In this document: positions 3,397 to 8,880 of the stretch, piece by piece | Layout of the letters: each line of letters starts with the position of its first letter | How positions within the stretch are numbered: position 1 is the first letter of the stretch | NCBI GenBank assembly: GCA_938091495.1 | Contig: CALLJF010000032.1 | Span: 1 to 56,470, forward strand | Length of the DNA: 56,470 nucleotides | DNA from: an uncultured Nitrososphaerales archaeon | Lineage (GTDB): Archaea; Thermoproteota; Nitrososphaeria; Nitrososphaerales; JACAEJ01 | Direction of reading: 5' to 3' | Made by a program: the position numbers and the translations under genes | Notes under the pieces: generated by a model | The model's database searches: none | The model's input: the letters and a program-made list of their open reading frames with translations, nothing else | What the model was told of the DNA's origin: nothing

Positions 3397-4260
3397 TTGA
3401 GGAGCATCGGACTTGTGTATGATAGGATACGCTTTGAAGAGAAGGCCATAATTGAGAAGGGTAAAGAAAAAGGATTGAACATAAAGCCATTAGACGCAAA
3501 GACTCTTTGCCTAAATGTAAAGAGCTCAAATAAAGAATCAAAAACCATCTTTGGAGATGTTGTTCTACAGAGATGCATAAGTTACTTTAGAGGCTTGCAC
3601 GTTACTGCCTTTTTAGAGAGCAAGGGAATAGACGTAATAAACTCGTTAAGTGTAGCTCAAATATGTGGAAATAAGATTCTGACCACTTTGGCCTTGGTAG
3701 AGGCTGGCGTGCCAACCCCAAATACTCTCATAGCTTTCTCTCCTGAGGGCGTATATGAGGCTATTGGTAATGTTGGCTATCCTGCTGTTCTTAAACCGAT
3801 AATAGGAAGTTGGGGAAGGTTGGTAGCTTTGCTCAAAGACAAGGATACAACAGATGCAATACTAGAGTCAAGAGAATTGCTTAACAATCCTATTTACAAC
3901 ATATACTACATTCAAGAGACGGTGAACCGTCCTCCTAGGGATATAAGAACCATAGTTGTTGGTGATAGAATAATAGCCTCGGTCTACAGATACGCATCTC
4001 AAGAAGATTGGAGGACTAATGTAGCAAGAGGGGGTAAGACTACTCCTTGCCCATTGACCAAGGAGCTTGAAGATATTGTACTGAAAGCAGCAGATGCTGT
4101 TGGAGGAGGAATTCTTGGAGTAGATGCCATGGAGAGCCCTAATGGAATTCTTGTTCACGAAGTCAACAACACAGTAGAGTTTAAAGGTGCCATGGCTGCT
4201 GGTGCCACTAATATACCTGACGAGATTTTGAATTATGCAATAGGTTTGGCGAGGAGATAA
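3397..4260 (+). CDS. lysX: LysW ligase for glutamate or aminoadipate (ATP-grasp)
   Basis: This RimK-type ATP-grasp ligase couples the alpha-amino group of glutamate or alpha-aminoadipate to the C-terminal glutamate of LysW. Visible ATP-grasp features include the segment PAVLKPIIGSWGR near residue 127, the VRD-like stretch PPRDIRTIVVGDRI, and the metal-binding HEVNNTVEF near residue 250. The C-terminal GATNIPDEILNYAIGL is typical of LysX/ArgX. It has 287 residues, normal length. TTG is the start, three bases after the lysW stop. Location beside argG and argH favours a glutamate/ornithine role, but dual use for lysine is common in archaea with a single copy. Confidence 0.92.
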   Translation: MRSIGLVYDRIRFEEKAIIEKGKEKGLNIKPLDAKTLCLNVKSSNKESKTIFGDVVLQRCISYFRGLHVTAFLESKGIDVINSLSVAQICGNKILTTLALVEAGVPTPNTLIAFSPEGVYEAIGNVGYPAVLKPIIGSWGRLVALLKDKDTTDAILESRELLNNPIYNIYYIQETVNRPPRDIRTIVVGDRIIASVYRYASQEDWRTNVARGGKTTPCPLTKELEDIVLKAADAVGGGILGVDAMESPNGILVHEVNNTVEFKGAMAAGATNIPDEILNYAIGLARR

Positions 4261-4262
4261 AT

Positions 4263-5315
4263 TTGAGAGTTGGAATATTAGGCGCTTCTGGATATGTAGG
4301 GGGAGAATTGCTAAGAATCCTGCTCTTTCATCCTAATGTTGAAGTGACATGCGCAACTTCTAAACGCCATTCTGGAGACTATATACATCATGTCCATTCA
4401 AACCTGAGAGGCGCGACAGACCTTAAGTTCATAGAGCACAATCCAGAAGAGATAATTAACAGATGTGATTTAATCTTCTCTTCTCTGCCTCATGGTTTAT
4501 CAGTAAAAACTATCCCAGATTACATAGAAAGAGGAATGAAGATCATCGATTTGAGCGCCGATTTTAGGCTTAAGAATCCAGAAGACTATAAGAAATGGTA
4601 TGGTTATGAGCATCCTCATCCTGAGATTATTGAGAAATTTGTTTATGGAATACCAGAGCTTCATCGCGAAGAAATAAGAAAGTCATCGTTGATAGCTAAT
4701 CCAGGTTGCATGGCTATAGCATCAATTCTTGTTTTAGCACCTCTTGCTAAGAGTGACGCTATTGATAAGAATAGAATAATTGTGGATACAAAGATAGGGT
4801 CATCAGGAGCGGGAGGAGCACCATCTCCATCAACTCATCACGCTATTCGCTTTGGTGTAATAAGGCCCTATAAGCCAGTTGGCCATAGACATACTGCAGA
4901 AATAGAGCAAGAGCTTAGTCAGATTGCAAAAGATAGTGTAAAGGTTGCCATGTCAGCCCATGCAGTAAACATGGTTAGAGGAATTTTGTCAACATGTCAT
5001 GTATTCACTCTTAAGCCCCTTACAGTATCAGACTTATGGAAGATCTACAGAGGCTTTTACCAAAATGAACCTTTCATAAGATTTGTAAGGGATAAGAAAG
5101 GTCTATACAAGCTCCCAGACCCTAAAGTTGTAATAGGCTCAAATTACTGTGATATTGGCTTTGAAGTTGATGAGCACGTAAATAGAATAGTTGCCTTTTC
5201 TGCTATAGACAATTTGATGAAAGGAGCAGCAGGAAACGCTGTTCAAAATATGAATATAATGCTTAACATAGATGAGAAGACAGGTTTACAAAGTCCAGGG
5301 TTACACCCAGTGTAA
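4263..5315 (+). CDS. lysY: LysW-glutamyl/aminoadipyl phosphate reductase
   Basis: An ArgC-family NADPH-dependent reductase that converts LysW-bound acyl phosphate to the semialdehyde. The N-terminal Rossmann motif GILGASGYVGGELLRIL begins at residue 3. The catalytic cysteine sits in NPGCMA at about residue 149, followed by the conserved SSGAGGAPS segment. The protein has 350 residues and ends with the usual family tail TGLQSPGLHPV, so it appears intact. TTG start two bases after lysX. Its last 13 bases and the spacer after it form the first copy of a 37-bp direct repeat. Confidence 0.94.
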   Translation: MRVGILGASGYVGGELLRILLFHPNVEVTCATSKRHSGDYIHHVHSNLRGATDLKFIEHNPEEIINRCDLIFSSLPHGLSVKTIPDYIERGMKIIDLSADFRLKNPEDYKKWYGYEHPHPEIIEKFVYGIPELHREEIRKSSLIANPGCMAIASILVLAPLAKSDAIDKNRIIVDTKIGSSGAGGAPSPSTHHAIRFGVIRPYKPVGHRHTAEIEQELSQIAKDSVKVAMSAHAVNMVRGILSTCHVFTLKPLTVSDLWKIYRGFYQNEPFIRFVRDKKGLYKLPDPKVVIGSNYCDIGFEVDEHVNRIVAFSAIDNLMKGAAGNAVQNMNIMLNIDEKTGLQSPGLHPV

Positions 5316-5410
5316 GAAATGGTCACAGTAGTAAAGTGGAGCAGCAGCTGGCCTATATGATGGGCATGATAGAGTTACACCCAGTGTAAGAAATGGTCAC
5401 AGTAGTAAAG
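5300..5410. repeat. 37-bp direct repeat, 74-bp period, at the argC/lysZ junction
   Basis: GTTACACCCAGTGTAAGAAA... occurs identically at 5300-5336 and 5374-5410. Copy 1 contains the argC stop and a decoy lysZ start that runs only 13 codons (MVTVVKWSSSWPI). Copy 2 repeats the argC tail and carries the real lysZ start. The intervening 37 bases begin with a GGAGCAGCAG also found in argC at about 5224. This is a recent tandem micro-duplication, or an assembly error. Confidence 0.9.
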
Positions 5411-6202
5411 ATAGGAGGCAGTATCTTAGAAAAGGGGGTAAACCCTACAATTCTAGAGGATTTAAAGATTGTTTTCCTTCAGCATAAAATTTTGCTCGTT
5501 CATGGTGGCGGGGATATAGTTACAGAAATAGCTGAAAAGCTAGGGAAGCGACAGACCTTCATAGTATCCCCTGAAGGGATTAGAAGCAGATACACTGACT
5601 GGGAGACTGTTGTAATTTACACTATGGTCATGGTGGGCAAGATAAACAAGGAGATAGTTTCAGCGCTACATAAAGTTGGGATAAACGCCATAGGCCTCTC
5701 AGGAGTCGATGGTTCAATAATAAAGGCTGAGCGCAAGAAGAAATTGATAGTCATGGATGAGAGAGGTAGAAAAAGAGTTATAGAAGGAGGCTATACTGGC
5801 AAGATAAAATCTGTAAATGCTGACCTATTGAATCTTTTAATCAATAATGATTACATGCCCATAATAGCACCTATAGCCATTGGAGATGAGGGAGAGTTAT
5901 TGAACGTAGATGGCGATAGAGCAGCAGCCTACGTTGCCGGAGGGATTAAAGCAGATAAGATCATATTCCTCACAGATGTTCCAGGAGTTTTGATGAATGA
6001 TAAAACTATTGAGAAGATGAGTCTATCAGAGGCTAAAGAAATTTTGCCGAAGATTGGTTTTGGTATGGAGAAGAAAGTTTTAGCATCAATAGAGGCTTTG
6101 GAGATGGGTGTAAAAGAGAGCATAATTGCATCAGGCCTTGTTGAGAAGCCTGTAAAGTCAGCCATCGAGCATAAGAACGGTACTGTGATTACTCATGGAT
6201 GA
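5393..6202 (+). CDS. lysZ: LysW-glutamate/aminoadipate kinase
   Basis: An amino-acid-kinase-family enzyme homologous to acetylglutamate kinase that phosphorylates the side-chain carboxylate of LysW-bound glutamate or aminoadipate. The N-terminal KIGGSILEKG and LLVHGGGDIVTEIAEKLG segments are the nucleotide-phosphate-binding loops, and the C-terminal NVDGDRAAAYVAGGIKADKIIFLTDVPGVL is the nucleotide-binding signature. Normal length at 269 residues. ATG start at 5393 in the second repeat copy; the first copy gives only a 13-codon peptide. Its end overlaps lysJ by eight bases. Confidence 0.94.
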   Translation: MVTVVKIGGSILEKGVNPTILEDLKIVFLQHKILLVHGGGDIVTEIAEKLGKRQTFIVSPEGIRSRYTDWETVVIYTMVMVGKINKEIVSALHKVGINAIGLSGVDGSIIKAERKKKLIVMDERGRKRVIEGGYTGKIKSVNADLLNLLINNDYMPIIAPIAIGDEGELLNVDGDRAAAYVAGGIKADKIIFLTDVPGVLMNDKTIEKMSLSEAKEILPKIGFGMEKKVLASIEALEMGVKESIIASGLVEKPVKSAIEHKNGTVITHG

Positions 6203-7406
6203 AAGAAAAATAAAAGAGATCGAAGACAGGCATTTTGCTCCTGTTTATGAAAGATTACCCATAGTGATAGTAAAGGGGCAAGGAGCCACTCTTTGGGATG
6301 TAAATGGCAAAGAGTACATAGACTGTATGGGGGGATACGGAGTCGCTATAGTAGGGCACTGTAACAAAAAGGTAATAGATGCCATAAATGAGCAGTCTAG
6401 GAGGCTTATAATATGCCATGGTTCTCTATATAATGATGTTAGAGCGAATCTATTAGAAAAGATGGCGAAGATTTCTCCCAAAGGTTTGGATGATGTTTAT
6501 CTATCTAATAGTGGTGCTGAAGCAGTCGAATGTGCATTAAAGCTTGCTAGAAGATACTCTGGAAAACCAGAAGTAATTGCTATGACAAGAGGCTATCATG
6601 GTAAGACTTTAGGAGCATTATCAGCAACTTGGAGCCAAAAGTACCGTTCACCTTTCTTGCCATTACTTTCAGATGTGAAATTTACACCTTTTGGCGATGC
6701 AGAAAAGGTAAGAGAGGCTATAACAGAAAAGACTGGGGCGATAATAGTTGAGCCAATACAAGGTGAGAGCGGGATATACGTTGCCCCAGATGGCTTCTTA
6801 AAAGAGCTTAGAGAAATTTGTGATGAGAAGAATATAGTTTTGATCTTCGATGAAATTCAGACAGGGTTTGGCAGAACTGGAAAGATGTGGGCATGTGAGC
6901 ACTGGAATGTAATGCCTGATGTAATGTGCTTGGCTAAAGGAATAGCAGGAGGTTTGCCATTAGGAGCTACTCTGGCTAAAAAGGAGATCATGTCATCCTT
7001 TAAGACAGGAGACCATACAAGTACTTTTGGTGGAAATCCTTTATCTTGCGCTGCTGCATGTGCAACTATAGACTACATAATTGGAGAGAACCTTGTTGAA
7101 AGAGCAAACAATCTTGGCTCAATTTTTAAAGAAAAATTAGAGAGTATCAAAAAGGATCACAGAATAGTTAGAGATGTGAGAGGTTTAGGTCTAATGCTAG
7201 GAATGGAGCTAAGGTTCGATATTAAAAACATATTGATGAATGGTATTGAGAAGGGTTTAATAATGCTCTATTCAGGCAAGAACATTCTTCGCTTCTTACC
7301 ACCTTTGGTGATAAGCGAAGAGCAGATTCATAAAGCCACAGATATACTCGAATCATTAGTATCTGAAGATGAGAAGTCCAGAATAGAAGTTAGATCACAA
7401 GAGTAA
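6195..7406 (+). CDS. lysJ: LysW-ornithine/lysine-forming aminotransferase
   Basis: A class III PLP aminotransferase (ArgD/LysJ family) that aminates the LysW-bound semialdehyde using glutamate. Visible are the PLP-phosphate segment SNSGAEAVECALKLARRY, the aspartate motif LIFDEIQTGFGRTG, and the Schiff-base lysine in CLAKGIAGGLPLGA at about residue 248. At 403 residues it is full length. It overlaps lysZ by eight bases and is the last gene of the operon. The LysK deacylase that releases the product from LysW is not next to it, nor elsewhere in the window. Confidence 0.94.
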   Translation: MDERKIKEIEDRHFAPVYERLPIVIVKGQGATLWDVNGKEYIDCMGGYGVAIVGHCNKKVIDAINEQSRRLIICHGSLYNDVRANLLEKMAKISPKGLDDVYLSNSGAEAVECALKLARRYSGKPEVIAMTRGYHGKTLGALSATWSQKYRSPFLPLLSDVKFTPFGDAEKVREAITEKTGAIIVEPIQGESGIYVAPDGFLKELREICDEKNIVLIFDEIQTGFGRTGKMWACEHWNVMPDVMCLAKGIAGGLPLGATLAKKEIMSSFKTGDHTSTFGGNPLSCAAACATIDYIIGENLVERANNLGSIFKEKLESIKKDHRIVRDVRGLGLMLGMELRFDIKNILMNGIEKGLIMLYSGKNILRFLPPLVISEEQIHKATDILESLVSEDEKSRIEVRSQE

Positions 7407-7910: not shown

Positions 7911-7959
7911 AAAGTTAGTTTTTAATGCCCCGCGGTAGCTCAGCCTGGTAGAGCTTCCG

Positions 7960-7979
7960 ACCCTCATCAAGGGGGAGAC
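7960..7979 (+). other. tRNA-Tyr intron 1, noncanonical position 30/31
   Basis: A 20-base intron inside the anticodon stem. Central helix CTTC (7954-7957) pairs with GGAG (7974-7977), flanked by 3-base bulges CGA and ACG cut after their second base; the inner hairpin is CCCT-CATCA-AGGG. Removing it is needed to rebuild base pair G31-C39. Confidence 0.85.
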
Positions 7980-7986
7980 GCTGTAG

Positions 7987-8030
7987 AGATTTGCTCTGGC
8001 AAAACTCACCAGCCTACTAGGCGCACAGAA
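7987..8030 (+). other. tRNA-Tyr intron 2, canonical position 37/38
   Basis: A 44-base intron. The anticodon-loop CTGT (7981-7984) pairs with ACAG (8025-8028); the 3-base bulges AGA (7985-7987) and AAA (8029-8031) are each cut after the second base, which is the standard archaeal endonuclease substrate. Confidence 0.9.
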
Positions 8031-8073
8031 ACCGGAGTGCCGCAGGTTCAAATCCTGCCCGCGGGACCTTTAT

Positions 8074-8880
8074 CTAAGACATCACTAACTTTCCATAAAA
8101 TTCCACTTTTCTGTCTTGAATTACATGATTGAACTTTGTTATGTTCTTATCACGGGCCTCAGAAATATCCACATCAACTACCTTTGTTATTACTTCATCT
8201 TCTTTGCCGATGCCAAAATCTTCATAGACGGGCTTGTAATCTGACTTTTTCCTGTGTAGTTGAATCTCTCTCCACCTCTAAATTCTGTTCCTGTACGATT
8301 GGCAGTAATAATGAACACTTTGTTTTCTAAAGACCTTATTAGCTAGCCTTTTGGCATAAGCCTGGAAGTACTAAATTCGAGGGATGAGCCATTACATCAG
8401 CCCCTTCTAAGGCAAGAACCCTTGCAGACTCTGGAAAGAACCAGTCAAACCATATCATCACTCCCAGCTTAAAATGTCTTAGATCAAAGACTCTAAAGCC
8501 AGTATCCCCAACTGAGAACCAAAGTTTCTCTTTATAAAGATGAATTTTCCTATAAACTCCTATGAACTGACCATTAGATACTACAACAGGAAAATTGAAT
8601 ATTTTATCATCAAATCTCTTTGCTAATCCTGCCACTATAGTCTTATTAGCTTCCCTTGAATGCTCCATTAGCTTGAGGGTAGTGTATCCATTTGGGATTT
8701 CTTCAGTTAGATAATCAATTTCTTTTTTTGCTAATGAAAGCGCATCCTGTATTAAAAAGCTCAGGAAATACTATCAAATCTCCCTCCTATATTTCTTGAT
8801 AGATCAATCGCTTCCTTAACGTTCTTCTCCTTGTTGCCGAAGGAAGGGTTTGTCTGCACGAAGCCTAGCTTTAATTTCAT
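8074..8880 (-). pseudogene. Broken carbon-nitrogen hydrolase (nitrilase family)
   Basis: From ATG 8880 the minus strand reads MKLKLGFVQTNPSFGNKEKNVKEAIDL, then shifts frame into LIVFPELFNTG (catalytic Glu region), shifts again into IPNGYTTLKLMEHSREAN, and continues through the 109-residue ORF at 8339-8668. It shifts again after ADVMAHPSNLVLPG into SLENKVFIITANRTG and ends near 8074. The order matches a whole nitrilase-superfamily enzyme of about 265 residues with several frameshifts. The nucleophile position reads GVMIWFDWFFPES, Trp replacing the essential Cys. The gene is therefore dead by both frame and active site. Confidence 0.85.

Follow-up and report, generated by a model that had tools for sequence, protein, structure and literature searches.

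A proposed H/ACA-like guide within the tRNA-Tyr intron of Thermoproteota that borrows the D-arm of its own tRNA

In archaea, the box C/D guide RNA carried by the intron of tRNA-Trp methylates C34 and U39. For pseudouridine at position 35 (Psi35) of tRNA-Tyr the usual enzyme is TruD/aPus7, and in eukaryotic pre-tRNA-Tyr the intron is required for formation of Psi35 by Pus7. The tRNA-Trp intron guide was termed a unique example in 2014 (PMC4090602) and was still the only archaeal tRNA-intron guide named in 2024 (PMC11408192); reviews in the open-licence literature name it as the sole case, and the accepted modification-guide functions of archaeal tRNA introns so far number one, this box C/D RNA. 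Formation of Psi35 by an H/ACA RNA has been reported in pre-tRNA-Tyr of S. solfataricus (PMC7991803, PMC4652768), and an H/ACA guide for this site, Sso1 with its '10/5/9' fold, is described from the Sulfolobales and Aeropyrum (Muller et al. 2009, as cited in PMC4652768). By the rules for such guides, the lower stem measures 7-9 bp and the ACA box lies 14-16 nt from the target (PMC4652768, PMC7991803).

Here we propose, with a probability of about 0.7, that in at least 28 families of Thermoproteota, in some of which TruD/aPus7 was not found, the intron of tRNA-Tyr holds a cis-acting H/ACA-like element that takes the D-arm as half of its guide stem, directs Psi35 of its own tRNA and must refold for splicing. 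The element found in the window (the whole stretch of 56,470 nucleotides analysed) resembles the Sso1-type guide in its target, U35 of a tRNA-Tyr precursor, and in its dimensions: about 5 nt for the 3' guide, 9 bp for the lower stem, about 9-10 bp for the upper stem and 14-16 nt between ACA and target. However, the literature presents the Sso1-type guide as an H/ACA sRNA that acts on the tRNA, whereas the putative guide of the window lies inside the tRNA-Tyr intron, draws half of its lower stem from the D-arm and has neither a 5' guide strand nor a recognisable K-turn. With the tRNA-Trp intron it would share the encoding of a guide that modifies its own tRNA, but that intron carries C/D boxes for 2'-O-methylation, while this one has an ACA-type layout and a proposed pseudouridine as product. 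The eukaryotic precursor likewise links an intron of pre-tRNA-Tyr to Psi35, but there a stand-alone protein reads the precursor, whereas the TruD/Pus7 family was not found in the genome from which the window comes.

The tRNA-Tyr(GTA) gene with its two introns occupies positions 7929-8066 of the plus strand, a match to the Rfam tRNA family (RF00005, 44.9 bits). One- and two-intron parses of the gene were scored on the quality of the cloverleaf and of the bulge-helix-bulge (BHB) motifs, and the best of them (score 32.1, runner-up 26.4) is Tyr-GTA with intron 1, ACCCTCATCAAGGGGGAGAC, of 20 nt at 7960-7979 (position 30/31) and intron 2, of 44 nt, at 7987-8030 (position 37/38). In this parse the acceptor, D, anticodon and T stems of the mature tRNA are fully paired, the anticodon loop is CTGTAGA and the discriminator is A73; removal of both introns is thus predicted to yield a complete tRNA with the sensible anticodon GTA. 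As judged from their predicted pairing, both are BHB introns, each with a 4-bp central helix and two 3-nt bulges at the splice sites. In BHB1, CUUC (7954-7957) pairs with GGAG (7974-7977), including one U-G pair, the bulges are CG^A and AC^G, the inner stem is CCC/GGG and the outer helix has only 2 bp. In BHB2, CUGU (7981-7984) pairs with ACAG (8025-8028), the bulges are AG^A and AA^A, and the outer helix is the anticodon stem, itself split by intron 1. An earlier sequence-only reading of the locus had proposed the same two introns, with anticodon GTA, A73 and the same two BHB helices with 3-nt bulges, all of which the parse recovers; it had named another intact tRNA-Tyr as a possible refutation, and no second tRNA-Tyr was found in the genome (1.39 Mb, 96.6% complete) when the whole gene or its mature exons served as BLAST queries. 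Neither ARAGORN nor a genome-wide tRNA search reported the gene, probably because of its length, and an automatic annotation could therefore list this genome as lacking tRNA-Tyr.

Two EndA genes are present in the genome. The first (187 aa) matches the endonucleases of S. tokodaii and A. pernix best; it has the Tyr/His/Lys catalytic residues and a KPKGADF loop, a KPK loop of the CSL type that aligns to the CSL of A. pernix. In the second (179 aa), the catalytic His is missing. A lysine of the CSL has been tied to broad endonuclease specificity (PMC12397907), and Thaumarchaeota are credited with a heteromeric alpha2beta2 EndA (PMC4090602). The protein sequences thus support the prediction that this splicing endonuclease can cut noncanonical sites. 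The earlier inference that an enzyme of relaxed specificity should be sought in the genome was right, since a catalytic EndA with a CSL-type loop and a His-less second subunit were both found, but given these two reports the outcome was to be expected.

While its two introns and its relaxed endonuclease hold, that reading stopped at splicing and overlooked both the conserved ACA of intron 2 and the pairing of this intron with the D-arm and the anticodon loop, in which the locus is unusual. There is a strong case from the sequences that in the unspliced precursor intron 2 can base-pair with the tRNA that contains it in an alternative fold, all of whose parts lie on the plus strand. The D-arm 9-mer GCCUGGUAG (7943-7951), which would supply the 5' side of a lower stem (P1) like that of an H/ACA RNA, forms nine of nine pairs with CUACUAGGC (8014-8022), which comparison, covariation and the minimum free energy (MFE) structure all place as the 3' strand of this P1-like helix. 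Just ahead of it, CAGC (8010-8013) opposes G31 C32 U33 G34 (7980-7983), directly 5' of U35, as a 3' guide-like strand. A P2-like hairpin, GAG-A-UUUGC-UCUG-GCAAA-A-CUC (7986-8007), runs from G37 into intron 2 and is seen both in the MFE structure and in relatives. Between them, U35 and A36 of the anticodon (7984-7985) are unpaired in the MFE structure, U35 being the proposed target of pseudouridylation. The ACA (8025-8027) lies 15 nt from C8010 and here also falls within the BHB2 strand ACAG.

The alternative fold is the unconstrained MFE structure of the window precursor (-60.5 kcal/mol, 37 C parameters), the cloverleaf core with BHB2 being about 9.5 kcal/mol less stable (-51.0 kcal/mol); the fold with BHB1 formed as well comes to -59.5 kcal/mol. 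The alternative fold and BHB2 are mutually exclusive, while BHB1 is compatible with both, and since both folds compete for nt 32-34, formation of BHB2 requires refolding. Shuffling the window intron 4000 times yields only two sequences that reach its score. The D-arm helix appears in the MFE structure of 51 of 64 precursors and is missing from that of 13, as against 38 of 320 (12%) with shuffled introns. Complementarity to the D-arm as a general property of introns was considered and rejected, as none of the other introns examined in the same genome reaches nine of nine pairs, the best reaching eight. A hairpin within the intron itself (AGCC/GGC(U)) was likewise dismissed: the intron base changes in step with the D-arm (C-G to U-A), whereas its would-be hairpin partner is an invariant C.

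Relatives were compared in a set of 75 genomes from 27 families, a sample smaller than the whole phylum Thermoproteota, to which a genome of a 28th family (G254) was added later; the pairing fit permits one bulge or a one-base spacer, and a minority of genomes use either. An alignment of relatives brings out a far more conserved segment in intron 2, CAGCCTACTAGGC-NN-ACA. The pairing of CAGC with nt 31-34 (GCUG) is complete in 74 of the 75 genomes, and the nine-base pairing between D-arm and intron is perfect in 63 and reaches at least eight of nine in 73. In total, 97.7% of cells are paired (27 distinct rows), compared with 20.7-49.4% when slid, and changes on both sides occur in 12 cells versus 3.4 in shuffles (0/500). 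A variable C/U of the D-arm tracks a G/A of the intron (55 C-G, 19 U-A and 1 U-G; Fisher 7e-17, with phylogeny ignored), with switches between C-G and U-A within families f1 and f9 and the U-G state in one f9 genome. Compensatory pairs of D-arm and intron are GGCAG/CUGUC in f4 and GGAAG/CUUCC in f29, and one genome (G162) has A at nt 31 and U in the intron, compensating G31-C to A31-U. In one counter-example (G080) the D-arm GGAAG faces CAACC, with two mismatches. The genome of the 28th family has a shorter and different D-loop together with a shifted, matching complement in the intron, and the helix is present in its MFE structure. A single upper hairpin, mostly of 7-10 bp, is found in 73 of 74 relatives, with G37 paired in 50.

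The ACA is similarly constrained. It starts 14-16 nt past the base opposite G34 in 72 of the 75 genomes (exactly 15 in 60), and ANA stands at the box position in all 75, ACA having a background of 0.65% elsewhere in the introns. In 27 genomes from 12 families the BHB strand lies elsewhere, yet the ACA is kept.

Held against the described guides, the window element has its ACA at a spacing of 15 nt from the target, a 9-bp lower stem with one strand supplied by the tRNA D-arm, and a 3' guide of 4-5 nt in CAGC with nt 31-34. A 5' guide strand is missing, the target strand entering the upper hairpin directly at G37, and the upper stem stands 17 nt from the ACA in the window and 17-18 nt overall instead of 14-16, owing to two or three extra bases between hairpin and CAGC in most genomes with G37 paired. 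Inspection of the window hairpin, which has A-A mismatches only and no tandem G-A, reveals no evident K-turn or K-loop to bind L7Ae. On account of these three departures we term the element H/ACA-like and do not count it as a member of the H/ACA sRNAs. Nop10 is encoded in the genome, as is one protein with a TruB_C_2 domain that is taken as Cbf5. An Rfam search at E up to 1 gave only tRNA and thus no known H/ACA family, and a box C/D guide as in the tRNA-Trp intron was set aside, since no C/D boxes were seen on inspection of the 44-nt intron 2. Among the matches of a pattern scan outside the Nitrososphaeria, three (L128, L114 and L129) did not resemble tRNA genes on inspection.

Intron 2 is thus probably a cis H/ACA-like element that guides pseudouridylation of U35 before it is itself excised. 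The gene would yield a tRNA-Tyr precursor with two BHB introns of the EndA type. In the unspliced fold, CAGC would lie on nt 31-34 and the next nine bases on the D-arm, with the hairpin starting from G37 and U35-A36 left free. Cbf5 and Nop10 may then bind the ACA and the 9-bp stem and turn U35 into pseudouridine in cis; an H/ACA guide performs the same reaction in trans, whereas here guide and target would be one molecule. Afterwards the RNA would refold to the cloverleaf, in which BHB2 arises from pairing of the same anticodon bases with ACAG, and intron 2 would be excised by EndA. The BHB of intron 1 could form in either fold, and this intron probably leaves first or independently, because intron 1 splits the anticodon stem, which serves as the outer helix of BHB2.

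It is possible that the helix between intron and D-arm is real but serves the control of folding or splicing, masking the 37/38 site until some other step has occurred and playing no part in pseudouridylation. The mutual exclusion of alternative fold and BHB2, with some 9.5 kcal/mol in favour of the former, would fit such a role, and a guide might be unneeded in the 48 of 75 motif-bearing genomes that have TruD. However, this explanation, which we regard as unlikely, does not account for an ACA fixed at 15 nt from the base adjoining U35, nor for the retention of this ACA where the BHB strand lies elsewhere, nor for a 9-bp lower stem that fits the H/ACA rule (PMC4652768). That the motif belongs to an ordinary two-intron tRNA and is kept solely for the pairing of ACAG with the anticodon loop that splicing requires is scarcely credible: ACAG is indeed the BHB2 strand in most genomes, but just the final 6 nt of the intron enter the BHB, while covariation with the D-arm and nt 31 extends over the preceding 13 nt, and the 27 genomes that retain ACA beside a separate BHB strand contradict conservation through splicing only.

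In a further scenario, intron 2 once excised would target other precursors of tRNA-Tyr in trans; such action is known for the box C/D RNA of the tRNA-Trp intron (PMC4090602). The ACA stands exactly 3 nt from the 3' end of the intron in 55 of 75 genomes, and in free H/ACA RNAs the box is likewise 3 nt from the 3' end (PMC7991803). Yet this spacing follows automatically from the geometry of BHB2 wherever ACAG is the splice strand, and the lower stem requires the tRNA D-arm, so that a free intron would be without its own P1; action in trans therefore appears quite improbable.

The distribution of TruD speaks both for and against the proposed guiding in cis. TruD/aPus7 was not found in the source genome or in any of the seven genomes of its family. 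Among the 75 motif-bearing genomes it is present in 48 and absent from 27, while it is kept by every one of the 14 sampled genomes whose Tyr introns are short and lack the motif (Fisher 0.0045, phylogeny uncorrected). A strict link between the motif and the loss of TruD was accordingly rejected, and it would be too simple to see the element as a substitute for a lost gene; genomes with both may have a redundant element, or a TruD that acts elsewhere.

As a further point against the proposal, other families of Thermoproteota have larger tRNA-Tyr introns with a different hairpin, or short introns. A second intron type consists of a long hairpin with a K-turn-like GAUGA strand and, after it, a strand complementary to nt 26-34, with no ACA at 15. 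It was seen at L199-L223 (L220 excepted), L232, L237, L238 and L243, in families f20, f41, f43, f44, f46, f48, f49, f59 and f60 and in one member of f19, and may be an alternative guide architecture aimed at the same site.

If guiding of Psi35 in cis by intron 2 is true, this would be a second intron guide, of another guide class, kept by covariation over a large part of the phylum. It would give a reason for the persistence of tRNA-Tyr introns and account for how Psi35 could arise in lineages that lack TruD. The idea of a switch in conformation between modification and splicing also becomes testable: named base pairs allow each helix to be disrupted and rescued, and some genomes permit a change of the ACA that leaves the splice motif intact.

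The emphasis of the sequence-only reading on the 30/31 position of intron 1 as a surprise was overstated, because the Phe, Asn and Met tRNAs of the same genome (L019, L021 and L025) carry 30/31 introns too. Indeed, many tRNAs of this genome bear introns, often at noncanonical positions: Phe at 30/31, Asn at 30/31 and 37/38, Met at 30/31 and V45/46, Pro at 29/30, Val at 28/29, Gly at 29/30 or 53/54, and others. Both introns of tRNA-Tyr were found in all seven genomes of the family, and the 30/31 intron of tRNA-Tyr occurs in at least 13 families (also in f4-f7, f9, f12-f14, f17, f18, f34 and f47), with hairpins that vary among them, a recurrence that speaks against chance; its length in relatives ranges from 16 to more than 60 nt, and the CUUC/G(G/A)AG helix is largely kept. 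Split tRNA-Lys at 30/31 in Nanoarchaeum and Staphylothermus and noncanonical BHB introns in Thermoproteales have been described (PMC3218864), and intron 1 is like them in position 30/31, BHB and heteromeric EndA. It differs as a cis intron in a tRNA-Tyr of Nitrososphaerales, and is a real, old and ordinary BHB intron that adds a member to a known kind.

Several smaller observations concern these introns. The tRNAs for Phe and Tyr have a common CCG^A...^GCT context, so the 30/31 intron may have spread between tRNAs. Two tRNA-Pro genes, TGG and GGG (L035 and L036, on C35 and C3 of G000), carry an identical 20-nt intron, AAGATTCTAAATCTGAAGAA, at 29/30, which suggests that either a gene with its intron or the intron alone was copied. 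One tRNA-Tyr of family f12 (L055, G017) seemingly has five introns, at 9/10 (read by eye) and at 30/31, 37/38, 53/54 and 59/60 (from the parser), where at most three introns per tRNA were mentioned in 2011 (PMC3218864). In family f8 (L077-L081), tRNA-Tyr has an apparent T-loop intron in addition to that at 37/38.

In the window, the genes just upstream of the tRNA (3397-7406) resemble, from their translations only, those of lysine/arginine biosynthesis with an amino-group carrier, namely an ATP-grasp ligase, a reductase, a kinase and an aminotransferase. On the minus strand, at 8339-8668, a 109-aa open reading frame resembles part of a nitrilase/amidohydrolase and is possibly a fragment.
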